Assembly: GCF_009831625.1 (NCBI RefSeq)
Contig: NZ_WUUS01000005.1
Coordinates: forward strand, 62,001 to 126,000
Direction of reading: 5' to 3'
DNA length: 64,000 nt
Source of the DNA: Halobaculum saliterrae
GTDB taxonomy: Archaea > Halobacteriota > Halobacteria > Halobacteriales > Haloferacaceae
Positions 44,598 to 52,118 of this stretch are shown here, one piece after another. The notes beneath the pieces are model-generated. The model saw only the letters and a program-made list of their open reading frames with translations. It had not been told where the DNA came from and searched no databases. The position numbers and the translations under genes are program-made. Within the stretch, counting starts at the first letter, position 1. The number at the start of each line of letters is the position of its first letter.

Positions 44598-45815
44598 CTA
44601 GCCGAGCAACGAGTCGAGGGCGCGCCGAACCGTCGCGGCGGCGTCGCGGACGCGATTGACGCGGACGTACTCGCGCTCGCTGTGGGCCACCGCGCCCTCC
44701 TCGTCGGCGAGGTGGCCCGGCCCGAAGACGACCGTCGGCGCGGGGGAGAAGTACGACGCCTCCGTCGCCGCGCCGAAGGGTCGGACCTCGCCGTCCGGGT
44801 CGGTGCTGTCGGCGGTAGCGTCGCCCCCGACCGCCCGAGCCGCCTCGCTCACGCCCCCCACAAGCGCGTGATCCGGATGCGTGTCGAACGCCTCCAGGAA
44901 CGGCGTCGGGCGTTCCGTCAGCTCGAACGAGACCTCGACGGCGTCGTCGACGGCCGCACGGACCGCGCTCTCCAACTCCGAGCGGAACCCCTCGGCCGTC
45001 TCCGGCGGCACCGACCGCCGGTCGAGGGTGATCGTCGCCGCCGCCGGAACCTGATTGGTCGCCTCGCCGCCGGTCACTCCCGTCGGAACGAGCGTCGGCG
45101 CGCCGAGCATCGAATGCGCCTCGGCGTCGTCGTCGAACCGGCGGACCGCCGCCAGCGCGTCCTCCAGCGCGGCGACCGCGTTGACGCCCGAGTCCGGCTC
45201 CGCGGCGTGGGCGGCGGAGCCGGAGAGCGTCAGCGTCCCCTCGAACCGACCGCGCGCGGCGACGCAGACGTCGCAGTCGGTCGGCTCTCCGACGAGGAAC
45301 AGGTCGCCGTCGACGGGGTCGACCGGACCCTCGGTGTGGTCCGCGTCGCGCCCGCGAACGAGCGCGTCGGCGCCGGTCGACAGGGTCTCCTCGTCGGGCG
45401 TCACCGCGAGCGTGACCGCGCCACGGGCGGGCTCAACGGCGAGAAACCCCGACAGCAACGCCGCGAGCGGGCCCTTCGCGTCGCAGGAGCCGCGGCCGCG
45501 GAACACCTCGTTCCCGAGGTCGTCGGTTCCCCGCTCGAAGGGCACGTGCGGCGGGACGGTGTCGATGTGCGTGTTGAGCACGAGGTGCGGTCCCTCCGCA
45601 GCGGCGTCCGCGTCCGGCGCGCGTCGCGTCGCCCGGACGTTCCCCGCGTTGTCGACCCACGGGTCCGCGCCGTGGTCGGCGAGCGTCTCGACGAGGAACT
45701 CCCGCATTCCGTCGACGGACTCGTGGGACGCGATCGGAACCGCCTCCGCGAGGAACGCGACCGGATCGAACTCGGTCGCCGGCGCCGGTTCGTCGCCGCC
45801 CTCGGCGTCGCTCAT
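44598..45815 (-). CDS. dapE: M20 family peptidase, probable succinyl-diaminopimelate desuccinylase
   Basis: 405 residues with the M20/ArgE/DapE di-zinc motifs: VLNTHIDTVPPH (His-x-Asp, about 83), GRGSCDAKGPLAALLS, DEETLSTGA (catalytic Glu pair) and LVGEPTDCDV, and a final His in the C-terminal FGPGHLADEEGAVAHSERE. In this operon it is expected to split N-succinyl-LL-diaminopimelate. The start overlaps dapF by four bases. It is the last gene of the lysine operon. Alternative: a related M20 amidase in another amino acid pathway, unlikely given the context. Confidence 0.9.
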   Translation of the reverse strand: MSDAEGGDEPAPATEFDPVAFLAEAVPIASHESVDGMREFLVETLADHGADPWVDNAGNVRATRRAPDADAAAEGPHLVLNTHIDTVPPHVPFERGTDDLGNEVFRGRGSCDAKGPLAALLSGFLAVEPARGAVTLAVTPDEETLSTGADALVRGRDADHTEGPVDPVDGDLFLVGEPTDCDVCVAARGRFEGTLTLSGSAAHAAEPDSGVNAVAALEDALAAVRRFDDDAEAHSMLGAPTLVPTGVTGGEATNQVPAAATITLDRRSVPPETAEGFRSELESAVRAAVDDAVEVSFELTERPTPFLEAFDTHPDHALVGGVSEAARAVGGDATADSTDPDGEVRPFGAATEASYFSPAPTVVFGPGHLADEEGAVAHSEREYVRVNRVRDAAATVRRALDSLLG

Positions 45816-46816
45816 TCGCCCTCCTCCGGCCCCGACTCAGGGACCGGGAGGTCCACGTCGAACTCCCGTGCCGCCGGCCCGGTCAGCGTCGCCGGGGCGT
45901 CGTCCGGGACCGTGATCCGCAGGGTGCCGCCCGGCGGCGACACGGCGAGGTCGGTCCGGCCGGTGATCCCCAGGCGGTGCGCGACGGTGCCCACCGCGAC
46001 GGCGCCGGTTCCACAGGCGAGCGTCTCCCCCTCGACGCCGCGCTCGTAGGTTCGCTGATCGAAGGTCCCGTCGCCGGTACGGGCGGCGAGCGTCACGTTC
46101 GCGCCCTCGGGGAAGGCGTCAGCGTGGCGGACGGGCGGGGCGACCGCGTCGAGGTCGACCGCGTCCACGCCGCCGGCGTCGCCGGCGTCGCCGGTGTCTC
46201 CACTGTCGTCCCCACGGTCGACGAACGCGACGGCGTGGGGGACGCCCGTGTCGACGGCGGTGACGGTCAGTCCCTCCACGTCCTCCTCGATCAGCGGGTC
46301 GTAGCGATCGTCGGCCAGCGGAACGTCTGCGGGATCGAACGACGGACGGCCCATCTCTACCTCGACGGTGACCTCGTGGCCGGCGGCGGCGGCGTCCGTC
46401 CCGTCGCCGTCACGGATCTCGGCGCGTCGAACGCCCGCGGGCGTCTCCAACTCGACCACGTCCGCGCCGGTGCGTTCGCGGACCCACGCCGCCGCACAGC
46501 GCGCGCCGTTGCCACACATCGCCGCGATCGAGGCGTCCGGTTGGACAAGCGTCATGGTAGCCGTGACGGGACCGTCGCCGCCGGCCGTGGACTCCTCGAT
46601 GTCCATGAACAGGACGCCGTCGGCCCCGGTCCGTTCGGCCCCCTCGACGCCGGTCTCGCGGTCGCAGTGGTGGACGGCGAACGCGCCGCGGTCGGGCACT
46701 CGACCGTCGGCGTCCGCGGCGTCGACGACGAGGAAGTCGTTGCCCGTGCCGTGGTACTTCACGGCCGGCACCGTCCGGGCTCCCGCGGAGGCGCTCGGTT
46801 CCGTCGACTCGCTCAT
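45812..46816 (-). CDS. dapF: Diaminopimelate epimerase
   Basis: 334 residues, about 60 longer than bacterial DapF. Both catalytic cysteines are present: MCGNGARCAAAWV (about 99) and LACGTGAVAVGTVAHRL (about 285). The N-terminal VKYHGTGNDFLVVD is the standard start motif. Acidic inserts (SGDTGDAGDAGGVDAVD near 215) account for the extra length. It converts LL- to meso-diaminopimelate. Overlaps lysA and dapE by four bases on each side. Confidence 0.94.
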   Translation of the reverse strand: MSESTEPSASAGARTVPAVKYHGTGNDFLVVDAADADGRVPDRGAFAVHHCDRETGVEGAERTGADGVLFMDIEESTAGGDGPVTATMTLVQPDASIAAMCGNGARCAAAWVRERTGADVVELETPAGVRRAEIRDGDGTDAAAAGHEVTVEVEMGRPSFDPADVPLADDRYDPLIEEDVEGLTVTAVDTGVPHAVAFVDRGDDSGDTGDAGDAGGVDAVDLDAVAPPVRHADAFPEGANVTLAARTGDGTFDQRTYERGVEGETLACGTGAVAVGTVAHRLGITGRTDLAVSPPGGTLRITVPDDAPATLTGPAAREFDVDLPVPESGPEEGE

Positions 46817-48096
46817 TCGCCTCCACCTCCGCGCTCCAAACGGGTAACTCCCGCGAGCGTCTCGCGCTCGCGGAGCACGTCGCCCGCGAGGCTCACCTCC
46901 GCGGGGCGCGGCCGGGAGTTGTACGTCGAGGCCATCTCGTAGCCGTACGCGCCGGCGTTGCCGACGGCGAGCAGGTCACCCCGCTCCGGGATCGAGAGGT
47001 CGCGCCCGTCACAGAAGGTGTCGCCCGTCTCGCAGATCGGCCCGGCGACGGTGACGGGTCCCTCGGCGCTCCCCTCTGACGCGTCGAGGTTCCGGATCGC
47101 GTGGTACGCGTCGTACATCGCCGGGCGAAGCAGGTCCGTCATTCCGGCGTCGACACCGGCGACCGTGGTCTCAGGGGTGGGCTTCACCGTGTTCACCCTC
47201 GTCAGGAGGACCCCGGCGTCGGCGACGACGTAGCGCCCGGGCTCGACCGCCAGCGTCGCGTCCACGTCGCCCAGCGCCTCGCGTGTCGTGTCGGCGACTG
47301 CGTTCAGATCGAGCGCGGGGTCGTCCTCGCAGTACGGGACGCTGAACCCGCCGCCGACGTCGACGAACTCCAGTTGCCCGTCGCCGACCTCGCGCGCCAA
47401 CTCGCCCATTCGAGCGACGAGGTCGCGGTGGGCGGCCAAGTCCTCCTCGCCGTGGATCCCCGACCCGGCGTGAGCGTGAAGCCCGACGACATCGAACCGG
47501 TCGCGCGCGTCGTCGACGACCTCCGGCGCGCGATCGTACGGAACGCCGAACTTCGGCGCGGCGCCCGTCCGGACCTTCTCGTGGTGACCCGCGCCGACGC
47601 CGGGGTTGACGCGGACGCAGACGCGGCCGTCGTAGCCGCGCTCCGCGAGGCGGTCGAGCGTGTCGCGCGCGCCGACCGTGATCGTGAGTTCGGGATGTTC
47701 CTCCCACCACTCGACCACGCTGTCGAGGTCGCGGGCGGGCGGATTGACCGCGGTGTAGTCGACGCGGTCGCCCGGGAAGCCGGCGTCGAGCGCTCGACGT
47801 ACCTCGCCTGCGGACGCGCATTCCGCGCCGAGTCCGGACTCGCGGACCGACTCCAGCACCGCGCGACCCGTGTGCGCCTTCACCGCGTACTTCACGTCCG
47901 CGTCCGGGAACGCGCCGCGCAGCCGTGCGCAGTTCTCCGCGACGCGGTCGAGGTCCGTGACGTACAGCGGGGTGCCGTGGTCGGCCGCCAGTTCGTGCAG
48001 GCGGTCGGCGTTCCACTCCGCGAGCCGCCGGATCGCCGGACCGCCCTCGGCGGTCGTTCGCCCCGGCTCCGGCGCGGACGACTGCTCGCCGCTCAT
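46813..48096 (-). CDS. lysA: Diaminopimelate decarboxylase
   Basis: 427 residues of the alanine-racemase-fold group IV decarboxylases. The PLP lysine is in VKYAVKAHTGRAV (about 57), HAHAGSGIHG and VGGGFSVPY bind the cofactor, and CETGDTFCDGRDL carries the active-site Cys from the second subunit. It makes L-lysine from meso-diaminopimelate. Flanked by dapD and dapF with four-base overlaps. Confidence 0.95.
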   Translation of the reverse strand: MSGEQSSAPEPGRTTAEGGPAIRRLAEWNADRLHELAADHGTPLYVTDLDRVAENCARLRGAFPDADVKYAVKAHTGRAVLESVRESGLGAECASAGEVRRALDAGFPGDRVDYTAVNPPARDLDSVVEWWEEHPELTITVGARDTLDRLAERGYDGRVCVRVNPGVGAGHHEKVRTGAAPKFGVPYDRAPEVVDDARDRFDVVGLHAHAGSGIHGEEDLAAHRDLVARMGELAREVGDGQLEFVDVGGGFSVPYCEDDPALDLNAVADTTREALGDVDATLAVEPGRYVVADAGVLLTRVNTVKPTPETTVAGVDAGMTDLLRPAMYDAYHAIRNLDASEGSAEGPVTVAGPICETGDTFCDGRDLSIPERGDLLAVGNAGAYGYEMASTYNSRPRPAEVSLAGDVLRERETLAGVTRLERGGGGE

Positions 48097-48938
48097 TCCC
48101 GGAGCGCGTCCTCGCGCCGCGTCGCCTCCAGCGTCTCGGTCTCCACGTCGGTGGCGACGACCGCGGGCTTGTACGCGCCGCCCTCGAAGAGGTCGTGGTC
48201 GCTGACGCTCGACTCGACGAACCGGGTGAACGCCCGACGGTTCTCGGGCAGGTGGCCGTAGACGACCTCCTCCTCGACGAGGTCGTACACCGGGATTCGG
48301 GGCGTGAGGAGCGTGTTCTCGCCGACGACCGAGTTCTCGCCGACTCGGAAGCCGGAGGTGACGCGACAGCCGGCGCCCAGCGAGACGCCGTCCTCGACGA
48401 TCACTGGCGCGTCCTCCACCGGCTCCAGCACGCCGCCGATCAGCGTGTTCGCGCCGAGCTTCACGTCCTCGCCGAGCTGGGCACAGGAACCGACGGTGTC
48501 ACAGGAGTCGACGAGGGTTCCGTCGCCGACGGACGCGGCGATGTTGACGAACGACGGGCTCATCATGATCGTGTCGTCGCCGAGGTGGGCACCCCGGCGG
48601 AGCACCGTTCCGTCGGGCGTGTTGCGCGCGCCCCTGGCTTCCAAGTCGTCGGTCTCGCGCAGCGGGAGCACGTCGTAGTAGCCGACGCCGCCGTACTCGC
48701 GGCGCTCTGTCTCGCGCAGGCCGAAGTTGAGGAGAACCCCCCGCTTCACCCACTCGTTGGCCTCCCACGAGTCGACGCCGGCGCCGGTCTTGCGGGCCGC
48801 TCTGACCTCGCCCGCCTCCAGCGCGTCGAGGAACTCGTCGAGGGTTCGGCGAACGCCGTCGTCGGCGTCGGCCGCGGTCAGTCCGTCGTCGTAGCGGTGC
48901 CACAGGTCGTCGATGTCTGATTCCAGTGTCGTCGTCAT
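48093..48938 (-). CDS. dapD: Tetrahydrodipicolinate N-succinyltransferase
   Basis: 281 residues with a left-handed beta-helix (hexapeptide repeats such as GDGTLVDSCDTVGSCAQLGE and LGANTLIGGVLEP) between about 140 and 245. The N-terminal helical part (TTTLESDIDDLWHRYDDGL) and C-terminal segment match DapD. It transfers succinyl from succinyl-CoA to the pathway intermediate. The ATG at 48938 is chosen because it overlaps the dapB stop by four bases. This marks the succinylase branch of the pathway. Confidence 0.92.
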   Translation of the reverse strand: MTTTLESDIDDLWHRYDDGLTAADADDGVRRTLDEFLDALEAGEVRAARKTGAGVDSWEANEWVKRGVLLNFGLRETERREYGGVGYYDVLPLRETDDLEARGARNTPDGTVLRRGAHLGDDTIMMSPSFVNIAASVGDGTLVDSCDTVGSCAQLGEDVKLGANTLIGGVLEPVEDAPVIVEDGVSLGAGCRVTSGFRVGENSVVGENTLLTPRIPVYDLVEEEVVYGHLPENRRAFTRFVESSVSDHDLFEGGAYKPAVVATDVETETLEATRREDALRE

Positions 48939-49726
48939 TCGAGTACCTCCGTGAAGTCGTATTCGCCGGCGTCGCGGCCGGCGAGCCACGCGGCGGCGTC
49001 GAGCGCGCCGGCGGCGAACACGCGCCGGGAGCCGGCGCGGTGGGTCAGTTCGAGCACGTTCTCGTCGCCGGCCATGAGCACCTCGTGCTCGCCGGCGACG
49101 TCGCCGGCGCGGCGGGCGTGAACGCCGATCTCGTCGTCGGTCCGCGGCGCGTCGCCCTCGCGGCCGTGGACGCGCTCGTTCAGGTCCGGCCGGGCGTCCT
49201 CGACGTCGTCGAGCAGGGTGAGCGCGGTGCCGCTGGGCGCATCGACCTTCCCGTTGTGGTGGGTCTCGGTGACCTCCACGTCGTAACCGGGAAGCGCTCC
49301 GGCGGCCGCCCGGACCGCCCGGCGCAGCGCGGCGATCCCCCGCGAGAAGTTCGAGGCGCGCAACACCGGCACCGCCTCGGCGGCGTCGAGGAGGGCGGCC
49401 TCCTGTTCGTCGTCGAAGCCGGTGGTGCCGACGACGCAGGCGACGCCGGCCTCGGCGGCGGCGGCGACGTACTCGACGCTGGAGTCGGGGCCGGTGAAGT
49501 CGACGAGCACGTCGACGGCCGGATCGGAGTCGACCGATCCGGCGTCGGCGAGCAGGTCCGGGAGGTCGTCCGCGTCCGCGACCTCGACGCCGGCGACCGG
49601 GTCGACCGGCGACCGGTTCACCGCGAGGGCGACCTCGCAGTCCTCGCGGTCGCCCGCGGCCTCGATCACTTCCCGACCCATTCGGCCGCCGGCGCCGGTG
49701 ACGGCGAGTCGGACGGGGTCGGCCAC
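48935..49726 (-). CDS. dapB: 4-hydroxy-tetrahydrodipicolinate reductase
   Basis: 263 residues. The NAD(P)H Rossmann motif is AVTGAGGRMGREVI (about 9-22). The catalytic segment ETHHNGKVDAPSGTAL (about 158) has the His-His, Lys and Asp-Ala-Pro-Ser-Gly-Thr residues of DapB. It is one base from the dapA stop, so coupled translation is likely. Confidence 0.95.
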   Translation of the reverse strand: MADPVRLAVTGAGGRMGREVIEAAGDREDCEVALAVNRSPVDPVAGVEVADADDLPDLLADAGSVDSDPAVDVLVDFTGPDSSVEYVAAAAEAGVACVVGTTGFDDEQEAALLDAAEAVPVLRASNFSRGIAALRRAVRAAAGALPGYDVEVTETHHNGKVDAPSGTALTLLDDVEDARPDLNERVHGREGDAPRTDDEIGVHARRAGDVAGEHEVLMAGDENVLELTHRAGSRRVFAAGALDAAAWLAGRDAGEYDFTEVLE

Positions 49727-49727
49727 G

Positions 49728-50642
49728 TCAGGCCTCCGCGGTGGGCGAGTCGGCGTCCTCCAACTCGGCGAGCAACTCCGTCAGCACCCGAAGGGTCTCG
49801 TCGCTGCCGCGAGTCAGCGGCGGGCGCATCTCGGCGGGCCCGTACCCGCGGATCGCCATCGCCTCCTTCACCGGGATCGGGTTCGTCTCGCGGAACAGCG
49901 CGCGCATCAGCGGCCCGAGCTCGTGGTGGATCTCCCGGGCGCGCTCGAAGTCGCCGTCGAGGGCCGCGCCGACCATCGCGCCGGTCCGTTCGGGCTCCAC
50001 GTTGGCGACGACCGAGATGGTGCCAGTCGCGCCCATCGACATGAGCGGGAGCGTCATTCCGTCGTCGCCCGAGAGCACGTCGAACGTCTCCCCGCGAGTG
50101 CGCTCGACGATCTCCGATATCCGGTTCGCGTCGCCGGAGGCGGCCTTGTACCCCTGCACGTTCTCGTGTGCCGCGAGGTCGACGACGGTGTCGACGTCGA
50201 GGTTCAGGCCCGTCCGGCTCGGGACGTTGTACACGACCTGCGGGAGGTCGACGGCGTCGGCGATCGTCGCGAAGTGCTCGTACTGACCCGCCGGCTCGGG
50301 CTTGTTGTAGTACGGCGAGATGAGCAGGAGCGCGTCCGCGCCGGCGTCGGCCGCGCGCTCGGAGAGCTCCAGCGCCTCCCGCGTCGAGTTCGAGCCGGTG
50401 CCGGCGATCACCGGGACGTCGGCGGCCTCGACGACGGTCTCGACGACCTCGGCGTGTTCGTCGTGGGTGAGCGTCGCGGCCTCGCCGGTCGAGCCGACCG
50501 GAACGAGGCCGTCGACGCCCGCGTTGGCGAGTCGGCGGGCGTCGGCCGCGAGCTGTTCGTGGTCGACCGCGTCGGTACCGTCGGTGAACGGCGTCGTCAT
50601 CGCCGGGTAGACCCCGGCGAAGGTGTCGTGGTGGATCGTCAT
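49728..50642 (-). CDS. dapA: 4-hydroxy-tetrahydrodipicolinate synthase
   Basis: 304 residues, TIM-barrel lyase. GSTGEAATLTHDEH (about 51) and YNVPSRTGLNLD (about 139) are conserved, and the Schiff-base Lys is in VQGYKAASGDANRI (about 167). It condenses pyruvate with aspartate semialdehyde, the committed step to lysine. It is the first gene of the six-gene operon reading from 50642 to 44598. The 205 bases between the TATA element at 50871 and this start hold a possible leader ORF. Confidence 0.95.
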   Translation of the reverse strand: MTIHHDTFAGVYPAMTTPFTDGTDAVDHEQLAADARRLANAGVDGLVPVGSTGEAATLTHDEHAEVVETVVEAADVPVIAGTGSNSTREALELSERAADAGADALLLISPYYNKPEPAGQYEHFATIADAVDLPQVVYNVPSRTGLNLDVDTVVDLAAHENVQGYKAASGDANRISEIVERTRGETFDVLSGDDGMTLPLMSMGATGTISVVANVEPERTGAMVGAALDGDFERAREIHHELGPLMRALFRETNPIPVKEAMAIRGYGPAEMRPPLTRGSDETLRVLTELLAELEDADSPTAEA

Positions 50643-50656
50643 TGATGTCGTGTGTG

Positions 50657-50684
50657 GTGTCGGGTTCGGCAGTCGTGTCGGGTT
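50657..50684. repeat. Two 10-bp direct repeats just upstream of dapA
   Basis: GTGTCGGGTT occurs at 50657-50666 and 50675-50684, 18 bases apart. An inverted copy (ACCCGACAC) lies at 50861-50869 beside the TATA element of the leader region. The placement suggests a regulator site, but there is no independent evidence. Confidence 0.35.
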
Positions 50685-50760
50685 GGCTGCTTTCGATTCG
50701 TGTACGATTACGGGCCGGAACTCGTCCCAGACCGGACGCTACGCCACGCCGGGGACGATC

Positions 50761-50847
50761 TCACACACGTTTCGGTTTCGCGGAGAAGACGGGGCGGACA
50801 CTCGACTCGACGGCGGCGGCCCTCGTCGAGGTCGGCGTCTCGCTCAT
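50761..50847 (-). CDS. Possible 28-residue leader peptide of the lysine operon
   Basis: An open frame begins ATG at 50847 and ends TGA at 50761. It has 28 codons and the C-terminal residues SAKPKRV, with both lysines encoded by AAA although nearby genes strongly prefer AAG. A good haloarchaeal promoter precedes it: GAAAC (50884-50880), a 3-base gap and TTTACT (50876-50871), centred 26-27 bases before the ATG, the spacing of a leaderless transcript. It lies 118 bases upstream of dapA on the same strand. It could control the operon or be a chance ORF. I consider it a hypothesis. Confidence 0.35.
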   Translation of the reverse strand: MSETPTSTRAAAVESSVRPVFSAKPKRV

Positions 50848-50870
50848 TACCGGACAACAGACCCGACACG

Positions 50871-50884
50871 AGTAAAGGCGTTTC
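50871..50884 (-). promoter_or_regulatory. Candidate promoter of the lysine operon
   Basis: On the minus strand the order is GAAAC, three bases, TTTACT, close to the haloarchaeal BRE/TATA pattern. It would start RNA near 50847, leaving about 205 bases before dapA. No better TATA element was seen closer to dapA. Confidence 0.5.
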
Positions 50885-50981
50885 CCTGTGGGCCGAATTT
50901 GCATCCGTGCTCCGACGTCCCGGCCGCCAAATCCGTGTGCCGACCGATCGCACGGCGGACGGGCCGCGCGGACTGTGTCCC

Positions 50982-52118
50982 CTACGATCCGACCAGTGTT
51001 TCGGGGGACTCGGCGGGGTCCTCGCTTCCACTCGCCGGCCCTTCGACGACCGTGACTCCCGTGACCTCGAATCGGGCGCCGCCGGTGTCGCTGTCGGTGA
51101 CACGGATCTCCCAGCCGTGTGCCCGGACGATACGGGCGACGATCGCCAACCCGAATCCGCTACTTTGGTTCGACGTCGTGTGACCCAGTTCGAACACCTC
51201 GTCGGCCTCGCTTTGCGGGATCCCCGGGCCGTCGTCCTCGACGAAGAACCCCGACCCGTCGGCCAACGGCCCGACTCGGACCGTCACCGCCTCACCGCCG
51301 TGTTCGATGGCGTTGCGGAAGAGGTTCTCGAAGACGTGACGGAGCCGATTGCCGTCGGCCTCGACCGTTGGGAGCGGCTCCGTGACGATCTCCGCGTCCG
51401 CCGTCTCGACGGTTGCCCAACACGTCTCGACGATCGCTCCGAGGTCGGTCCGTGTCGTCTCCCCGACCGCCTGCCCCTCGCGCGCCAACAGCAGGGTCTC
51501 CTCGATGATCGCGTCCATCCGCTCCAGCGCCGACTCGACCCTTTCGAGGTGGTCGTCCTCGCCCGTTTCCCGCGCGAGGTCGAGGTGACCCGTCGCGACG
51601 TTGAGCGGGTTTCTGAGGTCGTGGCTGACGATGCTGGCGAACTGCTCCAGGAGCTCGTTCTGTCGCTCCGTCGCTTGCTGCTCGGCCGCGAGCCGCTCCG
51701 CGACACGGGCTCGCTCGAAGGCCTGTGCTTGAGAGATCCCGATGAGCAACCCGACACCGCCACCGAATGAGAACGTCCACCGGGCCCACGCGACCGCGAG
51801 CGAGAGCGACTCCGGCGGAATCGAGATCATGAACAGGAGATTGAGTACCAGAAACCCCACCGCGCTCCCACCACACCATCCCGCTATCCGTCGATATCGC
51901 TCGCCGGAGAGGCCACTTCTCCGGATCCACCGTCTCGCATAGACGAGCGCTCCGATCGCCAGCAACGACGTGAGGAATCCGATGGCGAACTCCAAGGAGA
52001 ACGACCGTGGACCGACAGCGATGGCGATCGTTTCGCCGAGTAACACGAGGCCGAGACAGACACCCATGCCGGAGACGACGAGCAGCCAGTATTCGCTAGA
52101 ATCAAAACCAGTACCCAT
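50982..52118 (-). CDS. Membrane sensor histidine kinase, four-helix
   Basis: 378 residues. Four membrane helices (about 10-34, 42-60, 75-98, 103-128) form a sensor with little loop sequence, followed by a short coiled segment (ARVAERLAAEQQATERQ). HisKA has FASIVSHDLRNPLNVATGHLD (His at about 166). ATPase motifs NLFRNAIEHGG, DDGPGIPQSE and GFGLAIV are present. This sensor layout is common in haloarchaea. No response regulator is adjacent. A strong TATA element (52138-52150) precedes it. The signal may be a property of the membrane, but this is inference. Confidence 0.9.
   Translation of the reverse strand: MGTGFDSSEYWLLVVSGMGVCLGLVLLGETIAIAVGPRSFSLEFAIGFLTSLLAIGALVYARRWIRRSGLSGERYRRIAGWCGGSAVGFLVLNLLFMISIPPESLSLAVAWARWTFSFGGGVGLLIGISQAQAFERARVAERLAAEQQATERQNELLEQFASIVSHDLRNPLNVATGHLDLARETGEDDHLERVESALERMDAIIEETLLLAREGQAVGETTRTDLGAIVETCWATVETADAEIVTEPLPTVEADGNRLRHVFENLFRNAIEHGGEAVTVRVGPLADGSGFFVEDDGPGIPQSEADEVFELGHTTSNQSSGFGLAIVARIVRAHGWEIRVTDSDTGGARFEVTGVTVVEGPASGSEDPAESPETLVGS

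Follow-up and report, generated by a model that had tools for sequence, protein, structure and literature searches.

A conserved leaderless-type ORF ending in AAA lysine codons points to leader-peptide control of the haloarchaeal DAP/lysine operon

In bacteria, the control of amino-acid genes by leader peptides is textbook knowledge, with ribosome-mediated attenuators described for the trp, his, thr, leu and ilv leaders and for pheST, whose leader is pheM. Bacterial lysine biosynthesis genes are also controlled by the lysine (L-box) riboswitch, RF00168, and regulatory uORFs of eukaryotes include the arginine attenuator peptide at CPA1. According to the description of the ilvB-II motif, a uORF of Corynebacterium ilvBNC is conserved upstream of ilvB (PMC10272879). 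For the haloarchaea, a transcription start site study of Haloferax volcanii tabulates 16 uORFs in long 5'-UTRs (PMC4983044, Table 2), among them one of 26 aa at pheS (HVO_2948) and one of 23 aa at a tryptophan--tRNA ligase gene; its uORF table has no entry at dapA or ilvB, and its text judges structured leaders not to be typical of haloarchaea (PMC4983044). Haloarchaea are described as making lysine via the DAP pathway, which is given as absent from Halobacterium salinarum (PMC8305020). A search of the openly licensed full-text literature (subscription papers and preprints lay outside its scope) gave no archaeal leader-peptide attenuation among the matches listed, and an earlier, sequence-only reading of the present DNA likewise named no established haloarchaeal lysine case.

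We analyzed a window of 64,000 nucleotides from Halobaculum saliterrae (contig NZ_WUUS01000005.1, positions 62,001 to 126,000), within which Pfam matches confirmed an operon for DAP/lysine biosynthesis preceded by a short ORF. The features of the locus, in window coordinates, are as follows.

50871..50884, minus strand: leader promoter (BRE/TATA-like), GAAAC-GCC-TTTACT, read from the sequence
50761..50847, minus strand: leader ORF of 28 codons plus TGA, MSETPTSTRAAAVESSVRPVFSAKPKRV, predicted to be leaderless (sequence, conservation and frame tests)
50770..50778, minus strand: leader Lys codons, AAA-CCG-AAA (sequence)
50794..50843, minus strand: hairpin A, to which the leader ORF contributes its first half (coordinates taken from the minimum-energy fold of this leader)
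50722..50758, minus strand: hairpin B, directly 3' of the leader stop codon, with loop T-R-G-C-R (fold, covariation and matches to the covariance model R1)
50643..50721, minus strand: spacer, C-rich, T-poor and weakly structured, reaching up to the dapA start (composition and fold)
49728..50642, minus strand: dapA, 4-hydroxy-tetrahydrodipicolinate synthase, first gene of the operon (Pfam DHDPS, 5.3e-86)
48935..49726, minus strand: dapB, ORF as listed (Pfam DapB_C and DapB_N)
48093..48989, minus strand: dapD-like gene, ORF as listed (Pfam THDPS_N_2 and Hexapep)
46813..48096, minus strand: lysA-like gene (Pfam Orn_Arg_deC_N and Orn_DAP_Arg_deC)
45812..46816, minus strand: dapF (Pfam DAP_epimerase)

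The sequence-only reading had described a GAAAC-N3-TTTACT promoter at leaderless spacing from a 28-codon ORF, and checking base by base bore this out exactly: on the minus strand GAAAC occupies 50884-50880, GCC 50879-50877 and TTTACT 50876-50871, which places the TATA-like TTTACT at -29 to -24 relative to the leader ATG at 50847. A longer in-frame reading from an ATG at 50904 (47 aa) would begin upstream of this promoter. The other particulars of that reading were likewise exact. The ORF ends in SAKPKRV, with both of its Lys codons AAA (50778-50776 and 50772-50770); 118 nt separate the end of its stop codon at 50761 from the dapA ATG at 50642; and the nearby genes prefer AAG, with 14 AAG and no AAA in dapA, dapB, dapD, lysA and dapF against two AAA in the leader. 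The spacer at 50643..50721 contains no Shine-Dalgarno-like site, promoter or T-run. The nearest named relative of this dapA is that of Halobaculum litoreum, at 90%.

To see how widely this arrangement is shared, upstream regions were compared at a starting set of 80 named dapA loci, whose titles are nearly all haloarchaeal, and at 10 close dapA loci found in 11 genomes belonging to the same genus. Nearly all of these loci carried a short ORF with a K-x-K-R-like tail and a hairpin immediately 3' of it. A covariance model of hairpin B built from 46 sequences, which we call R1, matched all 90 of the named and genus loci, 260 of 292 class genomes (E up to 0.01), mostly once per genome, and 67 among 392 phylum genomes, with all 67 falling in the same order. 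In the Halobaculum saliterrae genome the dapA copy scored E 1.3e-4 and the next-best match 0.045. Together with 70 further R1-selected loci and 11 weak matches, the named and genus loci made up a set of 171, and in every one hairpin B shared the strand of dapA and preceded that gene by 20-218 nt. We retained 158 of them as distinct leaders; these are related sequences, and counts made on them are non-independent. Among the 32 class genomes that R1 did not match, 20 were followed up: three were without dapA of this type (E up to 1e-60), while 17 had dapA, and 11 of those 17 gave a weak R1 match at E up to 0.05. Inspection by eye found a Lys-ended ORF at three loci without an R1 match (L184, L185 and L191) and no leader feature at L197, where dapA is present; L196 was ambiguous, and the end of its contig truncates L199. 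In 15 class genomes R1 matched a second time at E up to 0.01. Of the strongest three, two overlap long ORFs (L212 and L213) and one lies outside any obvious operon (L214), with no lysine gene noticed, and the remainder are probable chance matches. The ORF, its lysine codons and its promoter thus persist across haloarchaea, the comparison that the sequence-only reading had named as its check, and a conserved hairpin comes in addition. Because the same order of promoter, start, Lys codons, stop, hairpin and dapA recurs across the class, the leader is more than a product of chance.

In the 158 distinct leaders the conserved ORF is mostly 24-40 aa long, and lysine is concentrated at its end. Within the final 14 codons every leader has at least one Lys and 147 have two or more, and Lys accounts for 20.5% of the ten terminal residues versus 0.4% elsewhere in the leader. 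Codon choice is reversed relative to the neighboring genes: AAA:AAG stands at 308:24 in the leaders, whereas the dapA genes at those loci have 20:467. Upstream of the leader start the sequence is A-rich at -34/-33 and has T, A and A at -28 to -26 in 88, 80 and 75% of the 158 leaders, which is the AT-rich pattern expected of leaderless haloarchaeal messages; the position-specific composition from -37 to -24 agrees with the leaderless type, in which the TATA box lies some 28 nt before the start codon and leaves no room for a 5'-UTR.

The leader frame had initially been chosen by its Lys codons, with one mis-pick (L032) and with L032 and L069 as length outliers. We also scored starts by the promoter alone, in the 142 leaders where it is clear (the other 16 of the 158 were omitted). 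From the promoter-scored start, the first in-frame stop fell no more than 20 nt from hairpin B in 142 of 142 leaders, compared with 4 and 38 of 142 for the other two frames, and 277 AAA codons lay in frame versus 65 and 71 out of frame. Since the promoter matrix had been trained on the same starts, the test was repeated with ATG leaders for training and GTG leaders for testing, and then the other way round. The stop again lay at the hairpin in all leaders with a clear promoter, 35 of 35 (44 GTG leaders tested) and 94 of 94 (112 ATG leaders tested). Codon-position entropy in the leaders showed no third-position excess, so the peptide outside the tail is not conserved as a protein; the N-terminal part is poorly conserved and variable in length, and only the K/R tail is kept. 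The tail is enriched in Arg as well (0.191 versus 0.143), and in 141 of 158 leaders the residue right after the last Lys is Arg, which leaves some room for a polybasic arrest or an Arg component. The Lys codons hold a three-base register, with occasional change of AAA to the synonymous AAG. These are signs, at the level of sequence, that the ORF is read as codons. Frameshifting at a slippery A AAA AAC in Halorubrum-type tails was considered and rejected, as the heptamer does not fall in frame in those tails, and AAA CGN AAA or AAA CCN AAA is read in other lineages. By standard wobble rules AAA is read only by tRNA-Lys(UUU). The Halobaculum saliterrae genome carries both a tRNA-Lys(CUU) (L291) and one intron-bearing tRNA-Lys(UUU) (L314, 1501-1608), and the latter is the presumed sensor of the AAA codons.

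Both hairpins are supported by comparison between species. In the window hairpin B folds at -21.0 kcal/mol (z -2.25). Over the 46 sequences it has 14 pairs, nine of them changed on both sides, with a covariation score of 0.320 versus 0.173 when shuffled; shifting the partner by 1-3 columns lowered the score to 0.18 or less. With 80 distinct rows, in an alignment fitted to the model, the values were 0.276 versus 0.156. The T and the C of the T-R-G-C-R loop are invariant in the 46 sequences. Fold statistics were computed on 90 leaders (79 for the spacer), and here the hairpin A region had a mean z of -1.39 versus -0.26 for the control region; compensatory changes in hairpin A were found in the 26-codon ATG group. 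We also exchanged arms between species for nine regions, 36 region pairs in all, in 51 thinned leaders. Cognate arms paired better than swapped arms for hairpin A (z -5.4) and hairpin B (z -6.9), and no pairing between A and B was significant among the 36 pairs and 51 leaders, in a test that is blind to pairings invariant between species. A weak third signal joined the Lys/stop tail with the region before dapA (z -3.3). Its permutation p was 0.0004 at n=51, 0.005 at n=100 and 0.15 at n=12, the pairing was weak against a shuffled-RBS control (mean z -0.43 versus 0.06), and the duplexes differ between species. In the fold of the window, GTGTGTGA around the leader stop (50761-50768) pairs with CACACAC just before dapA (50649-50658). 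We regard this long-range pairing as a weakly supported lead.

The distance from the last Lys codon to the stem of hairpin B is 13-16 nt in 143 of 158 leaders, and in the window the first base of the last Lys codon lies 14 nt before the hairpin, the commonest spacing. In five leaders (L009, L012, L120, L122 and L180) the stop has moved into hairpin B and the ORF extends to a TAG inside it. The distance in these five is still 14, and hence the spacing of Lys codons to hairpin is held more tightly than the position of the stop.

Beyond hairpin B, the spacer in sampled leaders is 40% C and 10% T, and its fold z of -0.26 indicates structure no greater than that of the control region. By score, the region before dapA showed no promoter of its own (median -12.9 versus a background median of -13.6), and an alternative dapA promoter was rejected on this basis; a Shine-Dalgarno-like site was present in only one of the 135 leaders, out of 156, in which the dapA start could be located. 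A transcript start downstream of the ORF, which would have spoken against the sequence-only reading, thus left no sign in promoter score or ribosome-binding site, as judged from sequence. A run of four or more T between hairpin B and dapA occurred in 12 of 158 leaders, and a T-run terminator was rejected as a general feature on this count; the few lineages with T-runs right after hairpin B include L078, L081 and L159. An Rfam search of 50500-51100 (E up to 1) returned no family, including the lysine riboswitch and the T-box.

Four other genes, ilvB, pheS, trpC and hisG, were scanned with the promoter matrix in 29 class genomes each. At ilvB a short leaderless-type ORF with an Ile/Val-rich [I/V/L]VG tail was present at 26 of 29 loci (L257-L284, with Halobaculum saliterrae as L266). 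The last ten codons of these leaders contained 32 GTA and 27 ATT, whereas sampled parts of the ilvB genes used GTA for 6 of 1146 Val codons and ATT for 25 of 504 Ile codons. A GTAGGGG...CCCC inverted repeat stands at the stop codon in all 26 leaders, and because this repeat itself favors GTA, ATT is the cleaner codon signal. At pheS, where loci L345-L373 were examined (Halobaculum saliterrae is L347), 21 of 29 had a short ORF whose final nine residues include three or more Phe, as in GFGFFFAR, and the sequence 3' of these leaders folds stably in most cases. These leaders mostly use TTC (67 of 80, versus 330 of 345 in genes), and as TTC is common in both, pheS lacks a strong rare-codon pattern. 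A GGYGGA...GAAACC-like element was also seen at 18 of the 29 pheS loci. The scan found no Trp-rich leader at trpC (29 loci, top three promoter-scored starts within 450 nt) and no consistent His-rich leader at hisG (29 loci, top three promoter-scored starts within 600 nt), where short ORFs with at least three His occurred at three of 29 loci, none of them alike. A candidate operator palindrome at trpC failed when counted. The amino acid of the leader therefore matches that of its operon at three of the five genes examined, dapA, ilvB and pheS. By gene and length only, the Haloferax volcanii pheS uORF HVO_2948 is probably this Phe-rich leader, and the 23-aa uORF tabulated before the tryptophan--tRNA ligase gene could be a further candidate (PMC4983044).

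Conservation, reading frame, codon bias, both hairpins, their spacing and the parallel leaders at ilvB and pheS were all observed directly in the sequences compared. On these grounds we consider it likely that the haloarchaeal DAP/lysine operon is controlled in cis by a translated leader peptide, in which a ribosome short of charged tRNA-Lys(UUU) would stall at the AAA codons and dap would thereby be derepressed. We infer translation, stalling and the direction of control along the following lines. Transcription would begin at or next to the leader start codon, as the promoter spacing suggests, and a ribosome would translate the 24-40 codons and meet the clustered AAA near the end of the ORF. 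With charged tRNA-Lys(UUU) scarce, the ribosome would wait at these codons with its leading edge against the base of hairpin B, if the 13-16 nt spacing is a guide, and hairpin B would stay folded. With lysine ample, it would reach the stop codon, disturb the lower stem of hairpin B and leave. The position of the ribosome would then set how much dap mRNA is translated or survives, such that expression would rise in lysine starvation. For the downstream step we lean toward control of the translation or stability of the dapA message over premature termination of transcription, because the spacer is T-poor and no competing pairing between A and B was found.

Premature termination, as in classical transcription attenuation, is an alternative with the same sensing step: hairpin B, or a structure excluded by B, would act as a terminator, with release once the leader is fully translated, either by RNA polymerase alone or by FttA/aCPSF1. 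Attenuation is the rule among bacterial leader peptides, and the few lineages with T-runs right after hairpin B fit it as well. Against it, T4 or longer is confined to the 12 leaders noted above in a spacer of about 10% T, the swap test, which responds only to pairings that vary between species, gave none of significance between A and B, and with a ribosome paused at the Lys codons hairpin B would stay folded, the opposite of what a terminator would require. FttA, an archaeal termination factor, is described as preferring U-rich RNA (PMC11616081), and with so little T in the spacer we do not favor termination within the leader. We hold this reading to be rather unlikely, though of appreciable weight. 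A further proposal, which we think improbable, dispenses with the ORF altogether and has the RNA act alone, as a lysine riboswitch or through a protein that binds hairpin B, the ORF being incidental. It would account for hairpin B and its T-R-G-C-R loop being the most conserved part of the leader, beyond what a plain barrier to the ribosome would need. It is difficult to reconcile with the frame kept from promoter to hairpin in 142 of 142 leaders, with Lys codons that hold a three-base register and sometimes exchange AAA for synonymous AAG, with tails at other operons made of their own amino acid, or with the absence of any Rfam match.

The tail itself could instead be what matters, if the ORF encoded a small basic protein or a K/R-rich nascent peptide that arrests the ribosome independently of tRNA charging. 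Polybasic stretches can slow ribosomes, and the K-x-K-R-like tail is widespread, with R next to the last Lys in 141 of 158 leaders. Against it stand a poorly conserved N-terminal part, varying length and no third-position signal, the preference for AAA, rare in dapA, over AAG, and the ilvB and pheS leader tails, which are unrelated to this one and matched to their own operons. We give this explanation little credence. Finally, short ORFs are common in GC-rich DNA, and the sequence-only reading had itself allowed that this might be a chance ORF without function. That reservation is contradicted by an ORF, a promoter spacing, a codon choice and a hairpin that are all conserved throughout the class, and the probability that remains to it is negligible.

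Returning to control by a translated leader peptide, the occurrence of matching leaders at further operons raises a broader proposal, on which we are evenly divided: haloarchaea may possess a general system of leaderless leader peptides, each with codons for its own amino acid and an RNA structure specific to its operon, operating in the absence of a terminator, in which the stalled ribosome would control translation or stability of the message. In this general system the stalled ribosome might, at dapA, do so by preventing base pairs between the Lys-codon/stop region and the ribosome-entry region of that gene. Leader-peptide control would be new to this domain of life, here in a leaderless form that apparently operates in the absence of a terminator. 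If true, it would place codon-level amino-acid sensing in Archaea, on leaderless messages that mostly have no T-run terminator. The significance we attach to it rests on the class-wide element, the reversed Lys codon choice and the matching leaders at two further operons. The cross-talk of archaeal ribosomes with RNA polymerase, or with mRNA decay, in a 5' leader would become open to testing in a genetically tractable organism, and the leader could find use as a reporter for tRNA charging in haloarchaea.

Among known systems, the lysine riboswitch RF00168 differs in that the dap leader has no Rfam match and conserves a Lys-rich ORF. The CPA1 uORF resembles the dap leader as an amino-acid-responsive uORF 5' of a biosynthetic gene, the response of the dap leader being predicted, but it needs a conserved arrest peptide where the dap leader conserves only a codon-rich tail. 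The Haloferax volcanii uORFs are, like the dap leader, small haloarchaeal ORFs, and they lie in mapped 5'-UTRs; the uORF section of that study, unlike the present account, is without discussion of amino-acid codons or attenuation (PMC4983044). The Corynebacterium uORF and the haloarchaeal ilvB leader both lie upstream of ilvB, the former in a bacterium, and they are likened here by description (PMC10272879). Compared with the bacterial attenuators, the dap leader is archaeal, has a leaderless start and precedes a dapA without a Shine-Dalgarno-like site; 146 of 158 leaders have no T4+ run before dapA, no competing antiterminator pairing was detected, and the terminator hairpin with a U-run before the first gene, which defines the trp type, is mostly lacking. 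In the broad sense it nevertheless bears the signature of ribosome-mediated leader-peptide control, a short ORF of cognate codons with the operon directly downstream and structure at ribosome distance. As in the bacterial attenuators, the cognate codons are clustered just 5' of the operon with hairpins before and after them, and this likeness extends to the haloarchaeal ilvB and pheS leaders.
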